From Luteibaculum oceani (lineage in GTDB: Bacteria; Bacteroidota; Bacteroidia; Flavobacteriales_D; Luteibaculaceae): 64,000 nt of DNA. Positions 37,392-42,940 of this stretch are shown here, piece by piece. Location of the stretch: NCBI RefSeq assembly GCF_007995015.1, contig NZ_VORB01000002.1:124001-188000 (forward strand), written 5' to 3'. The position numbers and the translations under genes were made by a program. How positions within the stretch are numbered: the first letter of the stretch is position 1; every line of letters begins with the position of its first letter. The notes under the pieces were generated by a model. It was not told the DNA's origin. It saw only the letters and a program-made list of their open reading frames with translations, and searched no databases.

Positions 37392-40300
37392 TTAGATTTT
37401 AGCACCTATTCGGATTATATCGGAATAAACTCCTCTCGCAGTTACTGCTGCACCAGCACCAGCACCTTGTACAACAATAGGATAAGCTCCATAACTTTCG
37501 GAGTAGATTTCAAAAAGGGAATCAGCATTTTTTACTTGCGCTAATGCCGAGTCTGGTGCCGCTTTTACCAAATCTACCTTCAATGTCTTTCGTTCAACAT
37601 CCAAATCTCCAACGTAACGGAGTACCTCACCCGTTTTAAGGTTAGATTTTAAGTTGCCGAAATAATTATTTAACTCCTCCTTCGCATCCAAAAAGGCCTC
37701 TGCACTCTCAAGGTTATTTAATTTAGGAGGAATTAGGGATTTGACTTCCACTTCACCGAGTTCAACTTCTAGTCCTACTTCGCGGGCTAGGATGATTAAT
37801 TTTCGAGCCACATCCAGGCCACATAAGTCTTCTCGAGGATCAGGTTCGGTTAAACCTTTATTCTTAGCTTCCAGAAGAACATCGTAGAATGGCAATTCTT
37901 GAGAAGAGAAGGTATTGAAGATGTAACTTAAACTACCACTGAATACCCCTCGAATTCGCGTAATGCGGTCCGCAGAATTATGCATTTGCCGTAAAGTGTC
38001 GATAATAGGTAAACCTGCACCAACATTGGTTTCGTATAAAAATGCACGACCACCTCTCCGCAAATCCTTACGCAGTTCCAAATAATCTTGAATAGGACCA
38101 GAGTTGAATTTTTTATTGGAAGCCACTAAATCATATCCTTCCCGGATAAATCTGGGGTACTGGCTTGAAATTTCCTGGGCCGAGGTATTATCAGCAATAA
38201 CTACATTCTCTAATCCCGATTCCTTTATGTCGCGAAGAATGTCGTCTACACTATTTGCCAATTTACTTATGCCTAATAGTTCTCTCCAGTTTTTGGAAAT
38301 CCCACCTTTATTAAAGATGTAATTATTACTATCTGCAACGCCTATTACCTTAATTTTTAAGTTTCGTTTTTTCTCGGTGGCAGAATCGGTTTCAATAATT
38401 TGATCGATTAATTTTCCTCCAACATTTCCCTTTCCAAACGCAAAAACATTAAGCGTTTTGCTCGCTCCAAAAACCTGGTTATGAACCACATTTACGGCCT
38501 TAGCAAGATTCACCCTATCTATTACTAGGGAAATATGCTCCCCAGAAATACTATTGCTTATCAAATGCATCCAGATCTTATTTCTGCGCAGTCCATGGAT
38601 GGCTTTTTCTAGCGAATAATTATGCCTACCCACAATGGCAACAATGGCTACATCCTTATTGGTTCGAATGCTGGCAATACTTCCCAGTTCAATTTCCTGT
38701 TTAAACTCCTTCCTCAAAAGAGATTCTGCCAGGTTAGCGGCATCTTGATTTACCACAAACCCAATTCCGCGTTCTGAGGAAGCTTGTGAAATAAGGCGTA
38801 CACTGATTTTAGCTTGGGTTAAAACGGAAAAAATCCGTCCGTCTATACCTACATTTCCAAGTAAACCATCACCCTCAATGGCAATTAAAGCAACATCATC
38901 CAGGCTCGAAACAGCCTTAATTCCTTTCTCACTTCCCTTTTTCGTAATTAGGGTACCCTCAGATTTAGGATTAAACGTACTCTTAATTCTAAGGGGAATA
39001 TTGGCTTGCATTAGCGGCAAGATGGTTTTTGGATGGAGTACGTTGGCCCCAAAGTTTGCAAGCTCATTCGCTTGCCTATAACTCATATGCGAAATTCTAA
39101 CTGCCGTATCTACAAATTTTGGACTCGCACTATAAACACCATCCACATCGGTCCAATTCACAATTTCTTTGGCATTTAAGAAACTGGCAATGAGCGTAGC
39201 GGAATAGTTGCTTCCGTTACGACCAAGGGTAATAGTTTTTCCCGTTTCGCTACTTCCTATAAAGCCTGTTACTACCGGAATGTGATTGGGTTTAATGTTT
39301 TCAAAAACTGCCAGGGTTGCCGCTTTACTTTTGCTTAGGTTTACCTCAAAATCATCGTATAGTTTATGGGTAAATATTAGTTCTCGGGCATCTAGAGGAG
39401 TACTTTTTACACCACTGGAATTAAGAAGAGTTGCAATGGTTTTTGCTGCAATTAGTTCTCCGTAAGAAAGTACTAAGTCGGTAGTGAAATCATCTGCGGT
39501 ACCAAGGATAGCTATAGCCTCTAGCAATTGTTTTAGCTCTTTTTTCTCCTTAGCGAGTTCAATTTTTACAGGTGCCGTTTGGTAGTCAAAAAAGGCATCT
39601 AAATCCTCCTTAAATGAAATCCCAGCTTTGGCTTTTTCTATCAGATCTAATAGATTATTTGTGCTGCTTCCACGAGCAGATACAACTACTGCAATGCTAT
39701 CCTTTGAGCTTTTGGTCTCGTCCTTTAAGATTTGAATAACCTCTTGGATGGGTTGTCCATTGGCTAGCGATTTCCCTCCAAATTTTAGCACCTTCCACTC
39801 GCTGTGATTTGGGGTTTTATCAATAGCGATGAAATTGGATATTGCTAGTGAAAGCTTTTTAGTTTCGGTTAGGAACCCATCGTGGCCATAATCCGATTCT
39901 ATTTCGTGATAGGTTGCATTTGGAAGGTTTTTTGCCAATGCTTTTTGCAAACGAGTAGGAATTAATCCATCCGAGGAAATGCCAATAACCAATGTGGGGA
40001 TATCAATTTTTGACAAAGCATGAATTTCACCTCCGCGTCCTCTTCCAATATTGTGACTATCCAAACACTTGGAAAGATAATAGTAGGAGAGCGGCTTAAA
40101 GCGCTTTACAAATTTGTCTCCTTGGTATTGAACGTACGAGGCCGCCTTAAATGCGTCGATTTTTTCCTCTTCGTCGGTTTGGGTCTCTATAAACTTATCT
40201 ATGGTGCGGTAGCTAAGCAAAGCAGCAGATCTAGCAGCACGCATTCCAGACCATCCTCCTGATTCCTTACCAAAACTCCCATCTGCCATTAAGGCCAACC

Positions 40301-40790
40301 GTTGGGCTTCGTGGATGGCAATTCCCCAAGCCGATTCGCGAGCCGAGGTTGCAACAAGAATTAGATTGTCAACCTTCCCAGTAAAACTGTAGGCGAATTC
40401 AAGGGCCTGATATCCTCCAAAAGAACCTCCTATTAGGCAGTTAATATGATTAATTTCCAACTGCTTGGCCAGTAATTGATAAGCATTCGCTAAATCTCTT
40501 ACTGTAAACTGCGGAAAACTAAGGTCTTTTGGGCTGGAGCTACCGTATGGTGAGCCAATGCTATTAACGCAAATAATAAAGTAATCTTGAGGGTTAAACA
40601 GGTAGTCTTCACCAAACAATCCTTTCCACCAATCTAGCACATCACTGTTTGCCGTTAAAGCGTGGAAAGCCCATACAACATTGCTTTTATCCTTATTCAG
40701 CTTTCCATAGGTGTGGTAAGCCAATTTTAATTCGTCTAGTTGTTGTCCGTTTTCCAACTTAAACGGACTGTGGTATTTGTAAATATTCAT
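37392..40790 (-). CDS. Trifunctional homoserine O-acyltransferase / aspartate kinase / homoserine dehydrogenase
   Basis: 1132 residues in one frame. Residues 1-320 are a MetX-type alpha/beta hydrolase with nucleophile Ser123 (GGSFGG), Asp274 (SSDGLIP) and His303 (YGHDGF). Residues about 331-775 are aspartate kinase (VLKFGGKSLAN, LGRNGSNYSATL, WTDVDGVY) with ACT domains (EGDGLLGNVG, VAIVAIVG). Residues about 780-1132 are homoserine dehydrogenase (VFAFGKGNVGG, ASNKK, GVFSGSLSYIFN, EPDPREDLCGLDVARK). The protein joins step 1, step 3 and the homoserine-acylation branch toward methionine. The kinase motif reads KFGGKS where many kinases have KFGGTS. Last gene of the SAM-riboswitch operon, one base after metZ. 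Confidence 0.93.
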   Translation of the reverse strand: MNIYKYHSPFKLENGQQLDELKLAYHTYGKLNKDKSNVVWAFHALTANSDVLDWWKGLFGEDYLFNPQDYFIICVNSIGSPYGSSSPKDLSFPQFTVRDLANAYQLLAKQLEINHINCLIGGSFGGYQALEFAYSFTGKVDNLILVATSARESAWGIAIHEAQRLALMADGSFGKESGGWSGMRAARSAALLSYRTIDKFIETQTDEEEKIDAFKAASYVQYQGDKFVKRFKPLSYYYLSKCLDSHNIGRGRGGEIHALSKIDIPTLVIGISSDGLIPTRLQKALAKNLPNATYHEIESDYGHDGFLTETKKLSLAISNFIAIDKTPNHSEWKVLKFGGKSLANGQPIQEVIQILKDETKSSKDSIAVVVSARGSSTNNLLDLIEKAKAGISFKEDLDAFFDYQTAPVKIELAKEKKELKQLLEAIAILGTADDFTTDLVLSYGELIAAKTIATLLNSSGVKSTPLDARELIFTHKLYDDFEVNLSKSKAATLAVFENIKPNHIPVVTGFIGSSETGKTITLGRNGSNYSATLIASFLNAKEIVNWTDVDGVYSASPKFVDTAVRISHMSYRQANELANFGANVLHPKTILPLMQANIPLRIKSTFNPKSEGTLITKKGSEKGIKAVSSLDDVALIAIEGDGLLGNVGIDGRIFSVLTQAKISVRLISQASSERGIGFVVNQDAANLAESLLRKEFKQEIELGSIASIRTNKDVAIVAIVGRHNYSLEKAIHGLRRNKIWMHLISNSISGEHISLVIDRVNLAKAVNVVHNQVFGASKTLNVFAFGKGNVGGKLIDQIIETDSATEKKRNLKIKVIGVADSNNYIFNKGGISKNWRELLGISKLANSVDDILRDIKESGLENVVIADNTSAQEISSQYPRFIREGYDLVASNKKFNSGPIQDYLELRKDLRRGGRAFLYETNVGAGLPIIDTLRQMHNSADRITRIRGVFSGSLSYIFNTFSSQELPFYDVLLEAKNKGLTEPDPREDLCGLDVARKLIILAREVGLEVELGEVEVKSLIPPKLNNLESAEAFLDAKEELNNYFGNLKSNLKTGEVLRYVGDLDVERKTLKVDLVKAAPDSALAQVKNADSLFEIYSESYGAYPIVVQGAGAGAAVTARGVYSDIIRIGAKI

Positions 40791-40791
40791 T

Positions 40792-41958
40792 TTAAATGCT
40801 TTTTAAGGCCTGGTCTATGTCAGCAATAATGTCATCAACATGTTCCAATCCAACAGAAAAGCGGATGTAACCTTCGTTAATTCCTTCGGACTTCAATTCC
40901 TCTGCCGATAATTTAGAGTGGGTGGTAGAAGCTGGATGGGTGGCTATGCTTCGGCTATCGCCCAAATTGGCGGTGAGACTATGCATGTTAAGCGCATTTA
41001 AAAATTTTGCTCCAGCCTTTTGTCCACCGATAATTTCGCATCCAACCAAACCGCCTCCTTTTTTCATTTGTTTTTTGGCTAAATCGTATTGCTCAAAATT
41101 GGGTAGGTGAGGATAGATCACCTTAGCAATTTTTGGATGCGACTGTAGATATTCTCCAATTGCTAAAGCATTATCGCAATGTCTATCCATCCTTAATGCT
41201 AGTGTTTCTATACTTTTGGATATAACCCATGCATTAAAAGGGGAGAGCGAGGCACCCGTCCTGCGAATAAAATCGTAGCATGTTTTTACAGGATCTGCTT
41301 TTCCCACTATGGCGCCTCCTAAAACGCGTCCTTGACCATCCAGGTACTTGGTAGCTGAATGCAAAATAAGATCGGCTCCAAATTTTGATGGTTGCTGAAG
41401 GTAAGGGGTAGCAAAACAATTGTCTACCACGAATAACAGTCCGTGTTTTTTACAGAGTTTACCCAAAAATTCAAGGTCTGCCAGTTTCAGCGTTGGGTTA
41501 GACGGAGTTTCCAGGAAAAGCATCTTGGTATTGGGCTGTAAAGCCTTCTCCCACGAACTATTGTCGTTAATTACACAGTAGGTGTGCGTAATTCCCGCTT
41601 TGGGTAAAATATTGGAAATAATATGGTGGGAGTTTCCAAAAATTGCCGAGGCGGAGAGAATGTGATCTCCTTGTTGTAATAGTGCCGCCATGCTGGTATA
41701 CACGGCAGCCATTCCAGATGCGGTAGTCAATCCTGCTTCCGTTTGCTCCAAAAGGCACAATTTTCTGACAAGCTCATCGGTATTGGGGTTAGAAAATCTT
41801 GAGTAGAGATTCCCGGGAAGGGAGCCTTCAAAAAGTCCAGCGCCTTCCTCAGCCGAATCGAAAGTAAAGGAGGAGGTAAGGAAGATGGGAGCACTGTGCT
41901 CTTTATGCTGGGTTTGCGCTAATTGTTCCCGTATGGCTAGGGTTTCGAATTTACTCAT
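40792..41958 (-). CDS. metZ: O-acylhomoserine sulfhydrylase (MetZ-type PLP enzyme)
   Basis: 388 residues of the Cys/Met metabolism PLP family. PLP lysine Lys204 in HSATKYLDGQGRVLGG, the GQGR run being typical of MetZ; the phosphate-binding SGMAAVYTSMAALLQ and SRSIATHPASTTHSKL near the C-terminus are intact. It makes homocysteine directly from acylated homoserine and sulfide. With the MetX domain in the next gene the acyl donor product is probably O-acetylhomoserine, unless that domain uses succinyl-CoA. It overlaps osmC by 8 bases. Confidence 0.9.
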   Translation of the reverse strand: MSKFETLAIREQLAQTQHKEHSAPIFLTSSFTFDSAEEGAGLFEGSLPGNLYSRFSNPNTDELVRKLCLLEQTEAGLTTASGMAAVYTSMAALLQQGDHILSASAIFGNSHHIISNILPKAGITHTYCVINDNSSWEKALQPNTKMLFLETPSNPTLKLADLEFLGKLCKKHGLLFVVDNCFATPYLQQPSKFGADLILHSATKYLDGQGRVLGGAIVGKADPVKTCYDFIRRTGASLSPFNAWVISKSIETLALRMDRHCDNALAIGEYLQSHPKIAKVIYPHLPNFEQYDLAKKQMKKGGGLVGCEIIGGQKAGAKFLNALNMHSLTANLGDSRSIATHPASTTHSKLSAEELKSEGINEGYIRFSVGLEHVDDIIADIDQALKSI

Positions 41959-42364
41959 TGATAGAGAATTTTGTGAAGATTTCTACGGTTGGGTACAGCA
42001 TTTTGTATACGGAACAGTATTTATCTCTACTAAGCCCTATAGCACGCTCTACCTTTCTAGGAGGGATATTGCCTTTTAGCTTGTAGTGAATAGTAATGTT
42101 TTTAAAAACTTTTGGTACAGCATGTGCTCGGGTACCGGTTACTTGTACGTCGTAATCTTCGGGAATTATTTTTTGCTTTTGCAGGATGTTAAGTACATCG
42201 ATAAGCATGCATGAACCCAGGGAAACAAGAACCAGTTGCATGGGGCGAAAAGCTGCTACTCCGGGAGACAATTCTTCTCCGGCGCAAAGGGTAATTGTAC
42301 TGTTTTCGTTTTGAGCGTGGAAGGTAAATTCACCCTCCGTAGATTTTACGATGTTAATCTCCAT
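41951..42364 (-). CDS. OsmC family protein
   Basis: 137 residues. Two conserved cysteines of the OsmC/Ohr fold are present: Cys52 (VSLGSCMLIDVL) and Cys117 (DKYCSVYKML). Known OsmC/Ohr proteins reduce organic hydroperoxides. It is the first gene behind the SAM-I riboswitch and overlaps metZ by 8 bases, so here it may serve a sulfur or thiol function connected with methionine synthesis; that is inference from position. Confidence 0.88.
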   Translation of the reverse strand: MEINIVKSTEGEFTFHAQNENSTITLCAGEELSPGVAAFRPMQLVLVSLGSCMLIDVLNILQKQKIIPEDYDVQVTGTRAHAVPKVFKNITIHYKLKGNIPPRKVERAIGLSRDKYCSVYKMLYPTVEIFTKFSINE

Positions 42365-42400
42365 TCTTGTTCGTTTTTGGGCTTATCAAGAGATGGAGAT

Positions 42401-42435
42401 AAAAAAACCTCTTTCAACTTGCAGTCAAAAGAGGT
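42401..42435 (-). terminator. Riboswitch-controlled terminator
   Basis: On the minus strand ACCTCTTT (42435-42428) pairs with AAAGAGGT (42414-42407) around a 13-base loop, then six U. It is the expression platform of the SAM-I aptamer just upstream. Confidence 0.88.
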
Positions 42436-42445
42436 CTCGGATATC

Positions 42446-42557
42446 TTCTGACTTATCTTTCCCTAAACCGTGGTTTAGAGTAGGAATTAGCACCTTTTCC
42501 CGTAGGATGGTTGCTAAGGTTTCATAGGGCCGTTCCCTCCACCTTTCTTGATAAGCA
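42446..42557 (-). promoter_or_regulatory. SAM-I (S-box) riboswitch aptamer
   Basis: Read on the minus strand, the conserved S-box blocks appear in order: GCTTATCAAGAAAGGTGGAG at the 5' end, GGCCC-TATGAAACC, GCAACC, GGTGCTAATTCC, and the closing GATAAG. P1 pairs CTTATC (42555-42550) with GATAAG (42457-42452). S-adenosylmethionine binding should favour the downstream terminator and shut off osmC-metZ-metX::thrA. An extra sequence complementary to the 5' P1 strand lies at 42381-42391. Confidence 0.96.
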
Positions 42558-42594
42558 ATTATTTCAAATTATAGTTGTCCACGTTTGGACAGGG

Positions 42595-42602
42595 CAAATG
42601 TA
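42595..42602 (-). promoter_or_regulatory. -7 promoter box for the SAM-riboswitch operon
   Basis: On the minus strand TACATTTG followed by C fits TAnnTTTG exactly and places the transcript start about 30-35 bases before the aptamer. A small hairpin GTCCA-AACG-TGGAC (42591-42578) would form at the 5' end of the RNA. Confidence 0.55.
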
Positions 42603-42669: not shown

Positions 42670-42929
42670 GATGAATGGATGAATGGATGAAGTGTTGAAT
42701 AGTCAATGGTCAATAGTCAATGGTCAATGGTCAATAGACAATGGTTAATAGTCAATGGTTGAGTTGTAAGTGGTTGGGGATAAGGGTTAAAGGTTAAAGG
42801 GTTGAAGAGGGATGGGGAGAGATTAGGTCTAAAATAAACCCAATGACACACTTTAGTGAACAGAACCGATTAGAGAAATCCAAACCACTCAACTACTGAC
42901 TATTAACCACTAACTACTAACCACTAACC
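42670..42929. repeat. Intergenic element with inverted heptad arrays
   Basis: The gap 42365-42940 contains the riboswitch and, from 42670, repeats. GATGAATG occurs twice plus GATGAAG (42670-42692). Ten or more heptads of ATAGTCA/ATGGTCA/ATGGTTA type follow (42699-42778), then AGGGTTA-like heptads (42784-42810), a core, and the complementary AACCACT/AACTACT array (42883-42929). The order sense array, core, antisense array is the same as at 35.7 kb. Confidence 0.85.
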
Positions 42930-42940
42930 AAAAAACAACC

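Follow-up and report, generated by a model that had tools for sequence, protein, structure and literature searches.

The leader of an osmC-like gene of Luteibaculum oceani raises the question of what a riboswitch for S-adenosylmethionine (SAM) would do with a second strand complementary to its own aptamer, placed between its terminator and the start codon. The window, which is the whole 64-kb stretch of DNA that was analysed, contains a single aptamer recognised by Rfam, a SAM-I (S-box) element; all parts of its leader are on the minus strand, and coordinates are positions in the window. We consider it likely that this one aptamer serves two OFF platforms in turn, first a terminator and later a sequestor of the start codon, with the 5′ strand of the aptamer acting as antisequestor.

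The original prediction, made from the sequence alone, described an 11-nt anti-P1 element, that is, a complement of the 5′ strand of the aptamer, located after the terminator and 16 nt upstream of the osmC ATG and longer than the P1 stem of the aptamer. All of this was confirmed. The sequence GCTTATCAAGA at 42556–42546 is exactly complementary to TCTTGATAAGC at 42391–42381, P1 has 7 bp, and the 11-mer occurs in the whole window at these two sites only, with 0.04 matches expected by chance. Minimum free energy (MFE) folding of the leader, which had been proposed as a check, also gives a structure with this pairing (−69.2 kcal/mol, z −5.3). When G-U pairs and a 2-nt bulge are admitted, the duplex grows to about 19 pairs with −26.5 kcal/mol, a value that was not reached in any of 1000 shuffles of the 62 nt preceding the start region. 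A role in antitermination is ruled out because the element is transcribed after the terminator, and a decayed second aptamer is ruled out as well, since the aptamer start is present there as its reverse complement and not as a copy.

A repeat search also returned a match between 42403–42393 and 42364–42354. With the aptamer imposed, the anti strand (42400–42381) is predicted to fold as AUCUCCAU-C-UCUUG onto CAAGA-AUGGAGAU (42369–42357), which buries the AUG in a start hairpin with a 13-bp stem (5′ arm 42400–42387, C42392 bulged), a 17-nt loop and an energy of −16.1 kcal/mol. The start region resembles the aptamer 5′ strand (CAAGAAUGGAG versus CAAGAAAGGUGGAG) because the same anti strand is complementary to both. 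In 5000 dinucleotide shuffles of the 24-nt post-terminator segment, the aptamer pairing was never matched, the start pairing was matched 16 times, and both together were never matched. The two pairings are mutually exclusive: the anti strand can pair either with the aptamer, leaving the start open, or with the start codon, closing it. By its pairing, and by the leader-specific matching described below, it appears to be a thiC-like anti-P1 strand, which engages either the aptamer 5′ strand or the initiation region. The two modelled states differ by 1.7 kcal/mol, and the predicted unpaired probabilities of the A, U and G of the AUG are 0.05, 0.00 and 0.00 with P1 versus 0.94, 0.35 and 0.30 with anti-P1; a ligand worth a few kcal/mol would be expected to tip this balance. 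The original prediction had offered two options, locking the aptamer open or masking the translation start, and both are supported, as two states of one switch; it had missed the specific 13-bp partner at the AUG, and the functional length is 20 nt and not 11.

In the mechanism that we propose, SAM binding would allow P1 and then the terminator to form, and most transcripts would end at about 42401. In transcripts that read through with P1 still formed, the free anti strand would fold onto the start region and bury the AUG. Without SAM, the antiterminator would let the polymerase pass; the anti strand would then capture the aptamer 5′ strand, P1 would open, and the AUG would become accessible. 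We infer the dependence on SAM, the effect on translation, the timing, and a possible reversibility in the full-length mRNA. The AUG makes sense as a target because Bacteroidetes mRNAs are without Shine-Dalgarno sequences and their initiation is tuned by the structure around the start (PMC6847099).

A SAM-I aptamer is also found directly before osmC in leaders L070, from another family of the same class; L187, from a Flavobacteriales metagenome-assembled genome (MAG); and L186, from a Saprospiraceae MAG. L070 and L187 have a terminator, together with strings that by eye are similar to the antiterminator of the window; no terminator is apparent in L186. The window and these three leaders share both pairings of the anti strand, that to the aptamer 5′ strand (p 0.001–0.055) and that to the start region (p 0.003–0.021), and blocking the anti strand cuts the cost of opening the start by 4.8–9.3 kcal/mol in all four. 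The pairs, tabulated from the individual folds of the four leaders (the window has an extra bulged C, which shifts its alignment by one column), are kept despite sequence change: in L070, for example, codon 2 is GAA, facing U, where the window has GAG, facing C. The anti strand ends 14–17 nt upstream of the ATG in six of the seven osmC leaders.

Conservation in related leaders, named in the original prediction as a further check, holds in part. The window's family is represented by the window leader alone, and the comparison rests on more distant relatives: the layout is present in L070, in L187 and, with no terminator, in L186; L190, L003 and L026 have it in weak or partial form; and it is absent from L001 (contig C12), the only other SAM-I leader of this genome, which precedes metH and has a terminator-like hairpin with no element after it. 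Within the window's order, the osmC homologues found by a search were all distant; L003 and L026 are the two others there with a SAM leader. Three genome searches with OsmC proteins added few further SAM-osmC pairs, and a search of viral contigs for OsmC gave no match.

The comparisons between leaders give strong support to the proposed switch, and we regard the leader-specific matching of both pairings as the strongest evidence. A swap test was made with 44 thinned leaders, the aptamer match being the sole criterion for selecting the anti strand. The anti strand preferred its own start region over those of other leaders (centred −2.46 kcal/mol, permutation p 0.00005), whereas control segments gave a mean of −0.58 and, in the most extreme of 12 draws, −0.96. 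Its match to its own aptamer strand was −3.67, versus −0.87 for the best matches in shuffled leaders, which control for the manner of its selection. What sequence and comparison demonstrate is thus the two complementarities and the fact that they exclude each other, the conserved position, and the recurrence and leader-specific matching in relatives.

The swap test bears directly on the possibility, which we consider improbable, that the anti strand is a lock of the aptamer only, barring the full-length mRNA from SAM binding after readthrough, and that its complementarity to the start codon is incidental. The start pairing is leader-specific although the anti strand was picked by its aptamer match alone, and it recurs with changed sequence in L070, L187 and L186. 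Such a lock would agree with the aptamer pairing being the stronger one (−26.5 versus −16.1 kcal/mol), with the report of anti-P1 as a lock against ligand binding in Escherichia coli thiC (PMC5234074), and with L026, which has an anti strand and no start hairpin. It appears very unlikely that the element serves stability or constitutive tuning, with a duplex at the 5′ end protecting the readthrough mRNA or a start hairpin lowering translation regardless of SAM. This would leave unexplained why one strand specifically matches two mutually exclusive partners, even if, judging by a promoter-like sequence read by eye at 42598–42565, the transcript probably begins with the aptamer 5′ strand.

Other points weigh against the two-platform switch itself. 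L026 lacks the start hairpin, as mentioned, and L003 and L190 are weak or partial; in the metB-like leaders, control segments also affect the opening of the start; and phylogeny was handled by thinning similar leaders only. The energy model is thermodynamic and leaves out SAM and tertiary contacts, and the AUG is just partly open in the modelled ON state.

The distribution of the element was surveyed in 153 SAM-I leaders of the class, osmC ones included, by comparing the downstream complement of the first 24 nt of the aptamer with shuffles. This anti-5′ element was enriched, with 25% of the leaders at p≤0.01 and 42% at p≤0.05 (30% and 46% after thinning of similar leaders), while three control probes in the same 153 leaders gave 0.7–2.6% and 3–14%, respectively. 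Among the 36 matches at p≤0.01 are 27 leaders without a detected terminator, eight with the element after the terminator, and one with the element overlapping it. Many metH leaders thus seem to have the anti-5′ element as their only platform; where it follows a terminator, it seems to be a second platform added to the first. A dedicated post-terminator test was positive at p≤0.01 in 17.6% of 51 leaders, versus 0–2% for controls; the nine positives are three osmC and six metB-like leaders and include none of the metH leaders that have a terminator. In one of the metB-like leaders, L132, the anti strand lies within a very long hairpin that ends directly at the AUG, and the free anti strand is predicted to make the start about 17 kcal/mol costlier to open, the largest value of the set.

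The corresponding post-terminator value in Bacillales was 3.8% of 53 leaders at p≤0.01, and the element as a general S-box feature was mostly not borne out there. It is hardly credible that shared P1, antiterminator and terminator sequences just yield a functionless downstream complement of the aptamer 5′ strand, since the window element is outside the terminator, one of the 36 same-class matches overlaps a terminator, and the post-terminator enrichment is 17.6% in the class against 3.8% in Bacillales. Such a by-product would agree with L328, L329 and L332, where it is the terminator itself that matches; these are three of the six Bacillales leaders whose downstream complement is good. The element is uncommon in Bacillales but present in isolated leaders; therefore, the design is neither a general S-box feature nor strictly confined to one class. 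The isolated leaders with a complement of the aptamer 5′ strand after the terminator are L310 and L335, with L326 and L360 as weaker examples. In L310, and in a group of amino-acid-permease-like leaders, this complement is a short distance upstream of the Shine-Dalgarno site, a hint that the same design may exist there independently.

On a wider scale, we lean with some reserve towards the view that it is common in Bacteroidia for one SAM-I aptamer to operate two switches in succession on operons of sulphur assimilation (osmC and metB-like genes). The second switch would target the start codon because there is no reliance on Shine-Dalgarno pairing, and the translation start would evolve into a mimic of the aptamer 5′ strand, with a single anti strand for the two. 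If this is true, a translational platform that is so far uncatalogued exists in many Bacteroidia SAM-I leaders, and SAM could still act on the full-length mRNA. It would also give a testable rule for riboswitch control of translation where Shine-Dalgarno sequences are unused.

The features of the locus are collected in the table. The aptamer aligns at full length (model positions 1–108) with 90.5 bits, above the gathering score of 44.4, which places it in RF00162. Membership in this family also agrees with the genes for methionine and sulphur metabolism downstream (the PF01053 enzyme and the MetX-like fusion), and the gene content of the operon fits SAM feedback. For the PF01053 enzyme, the closest NCBIfam models are those of O-succinylhomoserine sulfhydrylase, with scores below the cut-offs. 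The start of osmC is well supported, as relatives align from M1 and several start with MEI. When the leader is folded by transcript length, the antiterminator hairpin appears before the terminator is complete, followed by the terminator; the predicted antiterminator 5′ strand overlaps the end of P1, and the folding is thus consistent with a transcription-terminating riboswitch, in which terminator and antiterminator exclude each other.

Table. Features of the riboswitch leader and the operon (positions in the window)
Feature	Positions	Strand	Basis
SAM-I (S-box) aptamer	42450..42557	-	Rfam RF00162
Aptamer 5′ strand GCUUAUCAAGA: P1 5′ strand (42556-42550) and J1/2; proposed antisequestor	42546..42556	-	Exact complement of 42391-42381; MFE pairing
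P1 3′ strand GAUAAGU	42451..42457	-	7-bp P1 with 42556-42550
Predicted antiterminator 5′ strand AGUCAGAAG, partner CUUUUGACU in terminator 5′ arm	42445..42453	-	Length-resolved folding
Intrinsic terminator: arms 42435-42423 and 42419-42407, U run 42407-42401	42401..42435	-	Inverted repeat, fold, terminator finder
Anti strand AUCUCCAUCUCUUGAUAAGC, includes 11-nt anti-P1 (42391-42381)	42381..42400	-	Dual pairing, shuffles
Start-codon region CAAGA-AUGGAGAU, 3′ arm of predicted start hairpin	42357..42369	-	Forms with aptamer imposed; pairs tabulated against relatives
osmC-like gene, first in operon	41951..42364	-	Pfam OsmC, E 7.5e-17
Cys/Met metabolism pyridoxal phosphate enzyme	40792..41958	-	Pfam PF01053, E 8e-124
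Fused alpha/beta hydrolase (MetX-like) - aspartokinase - homoserine dehydrogenase	37392..40790	-	Pfam domains

Upstream of the riboswitch, two further observations were made. The palindrome GTCCAAACGTGGAC lies at 42577–42590, just before the aptamer and between the promoter-like TTTG (42598–42595) and TATAATTTG (42573–42565); its arm pattern occurs at just one other site of the genome, and it could be an operator or due to chance. In addition, the intergenic region contains two tandem arrays of imperfect 7-bp repeats, with the units AATGGTC and AACCACT (plus strand), at 42698–42759 and 42883–42930.

The open-access literature searched gave no example of a single SAM-I aptamer that combines a terminator with a start-codon sequestor downstream of it, and a 2026 survey of whole SAM riboswitch leaders reported no significant covariation between aptamer and platform (PMC13273304). 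Several known systems share parts of the proposed design. In the tandem bi-mechanism SAM-II/SAM-V arrangement (PMC9481103), SAM also controls first termination and then translation of the same mRNA, but through two separate aptamers in one leader, whereas the window contains one, for which both levels are proposed; one aptamer would then do the job for which tandem riboswitches need two. In the dual attenuation described by Barrick and Breaker (PMC2258182), one aptamer also affects both termination and translation, but there the ribosome-binding site is inside the terminator, the criterion being a terminator hairpin within 10 nt of the start codon. In the window, a separate hairpin is proposed, and the terminator ends 36 nt before the ATG (the U run ends at 42401 and the ATG is at 42364); published decision rules for expression platforms (PMC2258182) would label this leader as transcription-only. 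The c-di-GMP riboswitch with dual terminators (PMC11218506) is of a different, incoherent design. The SAM-I riboswitch of Xanthomonas campestris sequesters the AUG and the Shine-Dalgarno sequence in its SAM-bound state, but it has no intrinsic terminator and its platform also binds uncharged initiator tRNA (PMC7270179).

In the thiamine pyrophosphate (TPP) riboswitches of E. coli thiC and tbpA (PMC5234074, PMC11487190), the ON state without ligand has the aptamer 5′ region paired to a strand located downstream; this anti-P1 stem is incompatible with P1 and also with the stem closing the ribosome site, as proposed for the window. They differ in the TPP aptamer, in the Shine-Dalgarno target, and in a control at the mRNA level without an intrinsic terminator before the platform. 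With the SAM-I riboswitches that use an intrinsic terminator, the window leader has in common the aptamer, P1, the antiterminator, the terminator and the OFF logic for methionine genes; to this standard arrangement it adds a post-terminator element that uses the aptamer 5′ strand a second time and reaches the start codon.
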